Both the position numbers and the translations under genes were made by a program. From the NCBI GenBank assembly GCA_003650975.1, contig QMSU01000025.1, positions 1 through 9,581 of the forward strand: a stretch of DNA of 9,581 nt, in the 5' to 3' direction. Shown here piece after piece: positions 8,142-9,581 of this stretch (its first letter is position 1; each line of letters begins with the position of its first letter). Under the pieces are notes generated by a model. That model saw only the letters and a list, made by a program, of their open reading frames with translations, was not told where the DNA came from and made no database searches. The DNA comes from Thermoplasmata archaeon. GTDB taxonomy: Archaea; Thermoplasmatota; E2; UBA202; JdFR-43.

Positions 8142-9581
8142 TTATCTTTTCAGTTTCTTCTGGATTTTTGCCCAGGTGTCCCGGAGTTCCACAGTGCGGT
8201 TGATGACCAGCCGCTCTGCGGTGGTGTCTGGGTCAATGCAGAAATAGCCAAGCCGCTCGAACTGGAACCGGTCAAAGGGTTTCAGGTTACGAACGGCGGG
8301 CTCAACCTTGCATGAGGTGAGTGTAGTGAGGGAGTTGGGATTGAGAAATTCCTTGAAATCCCTTCCTTTCCGGCCCGCGGGGTCTTCCACAGTGAACAGT
8401 TTGTCGTAAAGGCGAACTTCTGCATCCACTGCATGGGAAGCTGAGACCCAGTGGATGGTGGATTTCACCTTTCTTCCGTCGGGTGCATCGCCGCCCCGGG
8501 TTTCCGGATCCACGGTGCATCGGAGCTCCACCACCTCGTCGTTCTCCTTTATCACGTCAGTGCAGGTGACAAAATAGGCGTACCGGAAGCGCACCTCTCG
8601 GCCGGGAGCCAGACGGTAAAACTTCTTTGGCGGGTTTTCCATGAAATCGCTCTGCTCGATGTAAAGCTCCCGGGAAAAGGGGACCTTGCGGGTTCCAGCA
8701 GCGGGGTCCTCCGGGTTATTTATCGCCTCCATCTCCTCCACCTTTCCCTCGGGGTAGTTCTCTATCACCACCTTCAGCGGGTGCAGCACTCCCATGAAGC
8801 GCGGGGCCGTTTTATTCAGATCCTCACGGACACAGTGTTCGAGAAGCTCGAATGGAATGATGCTGTTCACCTTGGATACACCAATCCGTTTGCAGAAATT
8901 CCTGATGGCAGTGGGGGAATAGCCGCGCCTGCGCATGCCGCATATGGTGGGAAGTCGCGGGTCATCCCATCCACGGACATATCCCTCCTCCACCAGCTCC
9001 TTGAGCATGCGCTTGCTCATCACCATATAGGTGAGATTGAGGCGGGCAAATTCAATCTGCTGCGGGTGATAGACACCCAGCTCATCAAGAAACCAGTCAT
9101 AGAGGGGGCGGTGATTCTCAAATTCAAGGGTGCACAGGGAGTGGGTGATGCGCTCGATGGAGTCCTCCAGGCCGTGCGCCCAGTCATAGGTGGGGTAGAT
9201 GCACCATTTGTTGCCGGTGCGGTGATGGGCTGCATGGAGAATCCGGTACATCACGGGGTCTCTCATGTTCATGTTGGGGTGGGCCATGTCAATTTTGGCG
9301 CGCAGCACCTTCTCGCCGTTGGCAAACTCCCCTTTTCTCATGCGTTCTAGAAGGTCGAGGTTTTCCTCGACGGAACGATCGCGGTACGGGCTGTTTCTGC
9401 CGGGTGTGGTGAGGGTGCCGCGGTAGGCAGATATCTCCTCTGCGGAGAGGTCGTCCACATACGCCTTGCCGGCCTTCACCAGCTGGACCGCATATTCATA
9501 CATCTGGTCAAAGTAATCTGATGCGAAGAAAAGCCGGTCCTCCCAGTCGAAGCCGAGCCATTTCACATCTTCCATAATGGA
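8142..9581 (-). CDS. glnS: Glutaminyl-tRNA synthetase, bacterial type, 5'-truncated by window edge
   Basis: Class I synthetase that charges tRNA-Gln directly. The 479 visible codons have the GlnRS-specific (not archaeal GluRS) path: SPYRDRSVEENLDLLERMRK, LRAKIDMAHPNMNMRDPVMY, GNKWCIYPTYDWAHG, ITHSLCTLEFENHRPLYDWF, then the KMSKS-equivalent VMSKR, GYSPTAIRNFCKRIGVSK, the RKVPFSRELYIEQSDFMENP signature and the two-barrel anticodon-binding region (GDAPDGRKVKSTIHWVSASH; FQFERLGYFCIDPDT) to its end. About 75-80 N-terminal residues including the HIGH motif lie beyond 9581; the ATG at 9575 is internal, as the frame is open to the edge and the usual SI-EDV-WLGFDW sequence continues through it. The gene stands in an archaeal context, which points to horizontal acquisition from bacteria. 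One near-invariant glycine of the EGITHS motif is Arg here (CGC). Confidence 0.96.
   Translation of the reverse strand, partial: SIMEDVKWLGFDWEDRLFFASDYFDQMYEYAVQLVKAGKAYVDDLSAEEISAYRGTLTTPGRNSPYRDRSVEENLDLLERMRKGEFANGEKVLRAKIDMAHPNMNMRDPVMYRILHAAHHRTGNKWCIYPTYDWAHGLEDSIERITHSLCTLEFENHRPLYDWFLDELGVYHPQQIEFARLNLTYMVMSKRMLKELVEEGYVRGWDDPRLPTICGMRRRGYSPTAIRNFCKRIGVSKVNSIIPFELLEHCVREDLNKTAPRFMGVLHPLKVVIENYPEGKVEEMEAINNPEDPAAGTRKVPFSRELYIEQSDFMENPPKKFYRLAPGREVRFRYAYFVTCTDVIKENDEVVELRCTVDPETRGGDAPDGRKVKSTIHWVSASHAVDAEVRLYDKLFTVEDPAGRKGRDFKEFLNPNSLTTLTSCKVEPAVRNLKPFDRFQFERLGYFCIDPDTTAERLVINRTVELRDTWAKIQKKLKR

Follow-up and report, generated by a model that had tools for sequence, protein, structure and literature searches.

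A glutaminyl-tRNA synthetase of bacterial descent at the end of an archaeal contig probably charges the native tRNA-Gln directly

Introduction

Does the gene cut by the end of an archaeal contig encode a bacterial-type glutaminyl-tRNA synthetase (GlnRS), and how would an archaeon use such an enzyme? A reading made from the sequence alone had proposed a bacterial-type GlnRS gained by horizontal transfer, and had asked whether it coexists with the amidotransferase route to Gln-tRNA and whether an archaeal tRNA-Gln would be recognized. In passages of three reviews from 2020-2022, GlnRS is "absent in archaeal genomes" (PMC7373986), its lack is stated for "all known archaeal genomes" (PMC8007984) and archaea are treated as being without GlnRS (PMC9499178). 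A passage of PMC8762117 assigns the indirect route to "almost all archaea" in one sentence and uses "always" in another. Passages of PMC9499178 and PMC8762117 report a hypothesis in which archaeal tRNA-Gln differs too much from its bacterial counterpart to be recognized. The discriminator A73 is among the archaeal differences given in PMC9499178, where archaeal tRNA-Gln has A73 and A1:U72 and bacterial tRNA-Gln has G73. Our literature search covered titles, abstract openings and passages, with preprints outside its scope and subscription papers sparse, and no report of an archaeal GlnRS was found in this material, which included passages of PMC9976931, PMC11580382 and PMC11670089.

A GlnRS gene of bacterial descent

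The window analyzed here, 9,581 nucleotides long, comprises all of contig C25 of the host genome (G000). A single open reading frame of 479 amino acids on the minus strand (8142..9581) runs off the contig end. Its product was compared with NCBIfam and Pfam profiles and with solved protein chains. The protein matched the glnS profile TIGR00440 with 623 bits against a curated cut-off of 425.8 and PRK14703 with 728.6 against a cut-off of 681, and the archaeal glutamyl-tRNA synthetase (GluRS) profile TIGR00463 scored 286.7 bits, below its cut-off of 401.75. Pfam placed the class I catalytic domain at residues 1-256 of the partial protein (PF00749, E 9.5e-79; 8814..9581, minus strand) and two anticodon-binding barrels at residues 259-358 (PF03950; 8508..8807, minus strand) and 375-450 (PF20974; 8232..8459, minus strand), with the window coordinates of the domains converted from residue numbers. 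The solved chains that scored best were glutamine--tRNA ligases, with 5bnz at the top and the 1qrs/1gsg group next. We take these to be bacterial GlnRS structures, 1qrs and 1gsg being from E. coli. The window spans the complete contig, so the frame lacks about 80 N-terminal residues, the HIGH motif among them, which would lie past its end; full-length relatives are about 557-567 amino acids long, and relatives do show LHIGH. The KMSKS-type loop was located by motif and by alignment with 1qrs as MSKR at residues 188-191 (9009..9020, minus strand), reading VMSKRML in the window protein and VMSKRKL in 1qrs. Tyr211, His215 and Cys229 of E. coli GlnRS are, we assume, the positions of the glutamine pocket and of glutamine choice. 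In the 1qrs alignment the Tyr and His equivalents fell in YDWAH (9174..9188, minus strand), and a Cys was found at position 229 (9132..9134, minus strand), where both aligned archaeal GluRS have Arg. In the window protein the Tyr and Cys equivalents are residues 132 and 150. Judged by these matches, 8142..9581 is a glutaminyl-tRNA synthetase gene (glnS) of bacterial descent, and the score above the TIGR00440 cut-off, the score below that of TIGR00463 and the two anticodon barrels bear out the sequence-only reading on this point. The protein shares with bacterial GlnRS (GlnS; the 1gsg group and 5bnz) the family, the domains, the KMSKS loop and the equivalents of Tyr211, His215 and Cys229, but its host is archaeal, and in the host's class glnS sits behind tRNA-Gln(CUG).

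Distribution, origin and linkage of glnS

GlnRS over the cut-off was detected in 33 of the 80 genomes of the host's class and in 50 of the 389 genomes sampled across its phylum. The 389 include the 80 class genomes, and 17 of the 309 genomes outside the class carry the enzyme. Thirty of the 32 other class GlnRS were compared with the window protein and were 72-86% identical to it, and the class genomes with GlnRS include three assembled as single contigs (G020, G021 and G042). The origin of the gene was assessed with a 108-row tree that took 55 of 79 bacterial loci, the bacterial rows being an uneven sample chosen by two sequence patterns from at least 80 listed loci. The 50 archaeal GlnRS formed one clade (SH-aLRT 98) nested among the 55 bacterial rows, and the window GlnRS grouped with those of G061 and G062 (support 80). 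Three GluRS rows stood apart from the GlnRS rows, the window protein included, and the gene thus falls with GlnRS and not with archaeal GluRS. The proposed horizontal transfer holds for the bacterial origin, as the archaeal clade is nested, but it is not specific to G000, as the gene is common to a 50-member archaeal clade. The simplest reading would be a single transfer from bacteria to the host's phylum followed by loss and passing on.

Linkage between glnS and tRNA-Gln genes is tight in the class. A same-strand tRNA-Gln(CUG) is followed by glnS within about 70 nt or less at 28 of the 31 class loci with upstream sequence, and tRNA-Gln(UUG) often lies just downstream; the loci without the tRNA-Gln(CUG) linkage are those of G061, G015 and G017. 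This count omits G049, which has too little upstream sequence, and the window, which has none, and it includes G045, whose frame is without a start codon and where the tRNA was placed before the gene. Linkage was looser outside the class, with a same-strand tRNA-Gln(CUG) at most 100 nt upstream at 5 of 17 loci, 266-898 nt upstream at another 5 and 192 nt away on the opposite strand at 1; no tRNA-Gln(CUG) was found upstream within the stretch fetched at 6 of the 17. Among the bacterial loci listed, tRNA-Gln was within 300 nt of glnS at 1 of 79, of which 70 had more than 300 nt of upstream sequence. Import of a bacterial tRNA-Gln along with glnS was considered and ruled out by the archaeal bodies of the typed glnS-linked tRNA-Gln. 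The amidotransferase gene gatD is placed similarly in the host's family, as it adjoins tRNA-Gln(UUG) and tRNA-Glu, about 85-90 nt upstream of tRNA-Gln(UUG), in 12 of the 14 family members with a gatD match (for example G063 C2 near 108.4-109.7 kb and G072 C3 near 76.6-78.0 kb). Each glutamine route therefore tends to adjoin a tRNA-Gln gene.

tRNA-Gln and route genes of the host

The host assembly comprises 1.56 Mb in 313 contigs, is 85% complete and 2% contaminated, and its smallest contig seen has 3,000 bases. The sequence-only reading had called for gatD, gatE and gltX to be sought in this genome. One archaeal GluRS was present in addition to the GlnRS, and an AsnRS scored over its cut-off. 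In this 85% complete assembly no match to PF02934 (GatB/GatE) was detected and no true GatD, the best GatD match reaching 48.6 bits against a cut-off of 324. A hidden GatD on contig C200 was rejected after scoring 70.3 bits as a type I asparaginase and 50 as GatD. Contigs shorter than 3,000 bases may have been dropped from the assembly and, given its completeness, contig number and smallest contig, gatD and gatE could sit on lost contigs. On the coexistence of the two routes the outcome was divided, as the GlnRS route alone was detected in the 85% complete host assembly and 14 relatives in the class have GlnRS together with gatD and/or gatE.

A covariance model was used to search for tRNA-Gln genes, which were then typed on extracted sequence, mainly for the high-scoring matches among those listed, so that low-scoring copies such as intron-bearing ones may be missed. 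The sole tRNA-Gln among the host matches listed is G000:C125:5070-5183, with the anticodon UUG assigned from the covariance model and the sequence; the ARAGORN anticodon label differs because of an intron. No tRNA-Gln(CUG) was found among the matches listed for this 85% complete genome. The tRNA-Gln(UUG) has G73, A1:U72 and a changed D-loop on an archaeal body, an anticodon-loop intron that is also present in 8 of the 12 typed family members, and, like family members, a tandem tRNA-Glu at a distance of three bases downstream. The question of tRNA-Gln identity was thus answered in part, the discriminator being the bacterial G73 and the body archaeal. Only 62 nt of contig C125 lie upstream of this tRNA, and the contig stops just before the usual place of gatD. 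Where G000 has G73, the typed members of its family carry A73 among the matches listed. The GluRS host tree places G000 within a supported 12-row set (96/95) whose other members bear the amidotransferase and A73, suggesting that the G73 of G000 is likely an independent change. The tRNA-Glu on C125 has an apparent second intron in the T loop besides its anticodon-loop intron, and this second intron was not seen in the tRNA-Glu sequences of the family members compared.

Discriminator base and route in the class and phylum

At least 124 distinct tRNA-Gln from 71 of the 80 class genomes were typed among the matches listed; the genomes without a typed tRNA-Gln were 6 amidotransferase-only genomes and 3 with neither system. 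Weak or fragment matches were scored as present for GatB_N in G022, G024 and G040 and for GlnRS ends in G019, G031 and G041, and the GatD stumps of G020 and G021 and similar weak matches were scored as absent. G023 and G058 were scored as amidotransferase-bearing from a GatD match alone. In this typing the anticodon labels are incorrect for one or more tRNAs in each of G054, G055 and G083, and none of our counts depends on these labels. Among the matches listed, amidotransferase-only genomes had A73 only (28 of 28 typed genomes, 44 of 44 tRNA-Gln) and GlnRS-only genomes had G73 only (22 of 22 genomes, 36 of 36 tRNA-Gln), the 22 including 3 with GlnRS as end fragments. The association of A73 or G73 with the route was strong when relatedness was ignored (Fisher p 1.1e-14, matches listed). 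The 14 class genomes with GlnRS and gatD and/or gatE had G73 only in 6 cases, both bases in 6 and A73 only in 2 (matches listed). Those with A73 only, among the tRNA matches listed, were G061 and G062, which carry GlnRS and GatDE and are the nearest GlnRS relatives of the host. The 10 class genomes with neither system had G73 in 5 cases and A73 in 2, with none typed in 3 (matches listed). A G73 tRNA-Gln with no GlnRS match and no amidotransferase match was seen in G013, G033, G034, G038 and G039, and we predict that their GlnRS was missed through assembly or frame errors.

The host marker tree was built from 68 class GluRS, and position 73 needs at least 6 changes on it. After correction for relatedness, 3-4 of 6 supported independent pairs agreed and 0 disagreed (p 0.125), an underpowered comparison. 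Outside the class, A73 was found on tRNA-Gln(CUG) in 14 of the 17 GlnRS genomes among the matches listed. Six genomes outside the class had GlnRS and no GatB/E match (G084, G095, G103, G116, G320 and G359). Among the matches listed, G320 (92% complete) and G359 (94%) had A73 on both isoacceptors and G095 had A73 on its sole tRNA-Gln. GlnRS thus evidently tolerates A73. As most GlnRS genomes outside the class keep A73, G73 is likely a strengthening change and not required for takeover; it fits the role of an entry ticket less well than that of a change, mostly inside the class, that strengthens or insulates. The typed archaeal tRNA-Gln have archaeal bodies with a first pair of A1:U72 or G1:U72. 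Bacterial tRNA-Gln has U1:A72 and shares G73, whereas the first pair here is A1:U72, or G1:U72 in some relatives. In G047 an A73 tRNA-Gln(UUG) with two extra anticodon-arm bases (G047:C110:30845-30919) occurs together with G73 copies, and it may be decaying. A tRNA-Gln(CUG) with an apparent D-arm insertion was seen at G011:C47:9535-9642.

Traces of the amidotransferase route were found in two of the single-contig genomes. G020 and G021 have GlnRS, G73 and no GatB/E match, and their only GatD match covers about 50-75 C-terminal residues (G020:C1:535600-538200; G021:C1:2111800-2114400). These stumps are 47-72% identical to the GatD of G002 and G005, and that of G021 has three internal stops. The pattern reads as erosion of gatD following the takeover by GlnRS. 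The next-best tRNA-model match in G021 was a tRNA-Arg. Two separate searches gave 22 class GlnRS genomes with no amidotransferase match counted.

Proposed direct charging and its alternatives

From these comparisons we consider it quite probable that the GlnRS of bacterial descent charges the native tRNA-Gln of the host directly and has replaced GluRS plus GatDE, the tRNA having G73 where its family has A73. A bacterial donor would have passed glnS to the archaeal phylum, where the gene would have settled beside tRNA-Gln(CUG) and been kept or passed on. In the class, the change from A73 to G73 together with alterations of the D-loop, for the most part a shortening, would have made tRNA-Gln a better substrate for GlnRS and a poorer one for GluRS/GatDE, and GatDE would then have been lost in several lineages. 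GlnRS would recognize tRNA-Gln via the anticodon and the acceptor end with G73 favoring it, and the altered D-loop would weaken GatDE, which reads the D-loop and A1:U72 of tRNA-Gln according to a passage of PMC9499178. A tRNA-Gln(CUG) would be expected just past the contig end of the window, upstream of glnS.

Both synthetases were compared at the residue level. Coevolution of GluRS was considered, as Lys versus Arg (G000 residue 205) separated 8 GlnRS-only from 8 amidotransferase-only genomes among 17 GluRS. This lead failed with the 68 class GluRS, in which Lys occurred in 16 of 19 GlnRS-only genomes but was shared by 12 of 29 amidotransferase-only ones, suggesting that it is likely a trace of ancestry. 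No GluRS residue explaining tRNA-Gln discrimination was found among the 68 class GluRS, and no GlnRS residue separates the 32 G73 from the 16 A73 archaeal enzymes. GlnRS residue 63 (E. coli 142, near the acceptor-end loop) is Asn in 25 of the 32 G73 enzymes and Glu in 12 of the 16 A73 enzymes; it was rejected as bacterial GlnRS mostly have Glu (31 of 55) and the independent pairs gave nothing.

The replacement may have been stepwise, an elaboration that we hold tentatively and rate at somewhat below an even chance. Under it glnS would first have served CAG from beside tRNA-Gln(CUG) with GatDE keeping tRNA-Gln(UUG) and CAA, then the switch from A73 to G73 with D-loop changes would have occurred more than once, and GatDE would have decayed. 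The state of G062 and G058 suggests such a division, with CAG served by GlnRS and CAA by GatDE. If stepwise takeover is true, these genomes preserve stages of a natural swap of the charging route of a coding amino acid, and some cells would serve two synonymous codons by two different biochemical routes.

It is unlikely that both routes are active in the host itself, with GlnRS serving tRNA-Gln(CUG), GluRS plus GatDE serving another tRNA-Gln and the gat genes lying in assembly gaps. The 14 class relatives with both systems, of which 6 show A73 and G73 among the matches listed, are consistent with this, as are the two systems of the nearest GlnRS relatives G061 and G062 and the 85% completeness of an assembly in which the tRNA-Gln(UUG) contig ends where gatD would be. 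However, GatD and GatE are both unseen, though they lie apart in G063 C2 (near 108 kb and 160 kb), and the host tRNA-Gln has G73, which was found in 0 of 44 tRNA-Gln from amidotransferase-only class genomes (matches listed). We regard it as very improbable that the GlnRS is no housekeeping enzyme but a stray or accessory copy contributing little to translation, with G73 arising by unrelated drift within a single clade. The failure of the A73/G73 rule outside the class and the underpowered relatedness-corrected test would fit drift, but the 50 enzymes form one conserved clade, glnS is tightly linked to tRNA-Gln in the class, 22 class GlnRS genomes are without a counted amidotransferase match with GatD stumps in two, and the G73 of the host is on a native intron-bearing tRNA outside the main G73 family.

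Direct charging by a replacement GlnRS would set the host apart from known systems in several respects. The archaeal indirect route, described in a passage of PMC9499178 as non-discriminating GluRS plus GatDE, has in common with G000 the archaeal GluRS, but G000 is without a GatE/GatB match or true GatD, and its discriminator is G73, not A73. Bacteria with GlnRS and GatCAB (Bdellovibrio, Deinococcus and Thermus in a passage of PMC4206432) have two systems per genome like the 14 class relatives, but the archaeal amidotransferase is GatDE and 6 of the 14 have separate A73 and G73 tRNA-Gln among the matches listed. Archaeal AsnRS, acquired by transfer, likewise took the place of a tRNA-dependent amide route by direct charging, but a passage of PMC9499178 argues that the bases needed by bacterial AsnRS are already present in archaeal tRNA-Asn. 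The same does not hold for tRNA-Gln. The presence of GlnRS in 50 of 389 genomes sampled from one archaeal phylum contrasts with the absence stated in the reviews, and the phylum includes single-contig genomes with GlnRS, no GatB/E match and at most a GatD stump. Within the class the discriminator base tracks the route found. The long-standing question of why archaea would never have GlnRS becomes testable, as the tRNA-Gln of related species differ at few bases, and the tRNA/synthetase pairs so gained would be of interest for orthogonal translation.

Contig context

The archaeal surroundings of glnS noted from the sequence were all recovered on the window. Pfam identified S19e, L31e and eIF-6, and a tRNA-Trp(CCA) with a 69-nt intron was located at 5098-5241 (plus strand), detected by ARAGORN only with the intron option. 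The junction is anchored by two native genes, a DUF2721 membrane protein (7062..7502, plus strand) and an alpha/beta hydrolase (7456..8097, plus strand) convergent with glnS, both identified by Pfam. Homologues of the hydrolase were found in 12 of the 16 other genomes of the host's family and the DUF2721 gene adjoins it at 9 of these 12 loci. A convergent tRNA-Gln(CUG) directly follows the hydrolase in G075 and G076, in the position where G000 carries glnS. With genes native to the archaeal family adjoining glnS, a chimera is unlikely, and the misjoined contig that would have undone the sequence-only reading did not materialize. A misjoin of a bacterial contig end (8142-9581) onto an archaeal contig, to which the cut glnS at the contig end could point, is scarcely credible given that the nearest relatives of the gene are archaeal with 32 other class genomes carrying it, that the relatives' glnS lie mostly beside archaeal tRNA-Gln genes and are also found in the single-contig G020, G021 and G042, that in G075 and G076 the tRNA-Gln(CUG) locus comes where the hydrolase stops, and that the G73 tRNA-Gln is on a different G000 contig. 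Elsewhere on the window, a caspase-domain (Peptidase_C14) protein is encoded at 4101-5009 (minus strand) in this archaeon. The L31e protein (604-1302, minus strand) has a long charged tail with weak Rho_N and Ish1-like matches, both below the Pfam cut-off.
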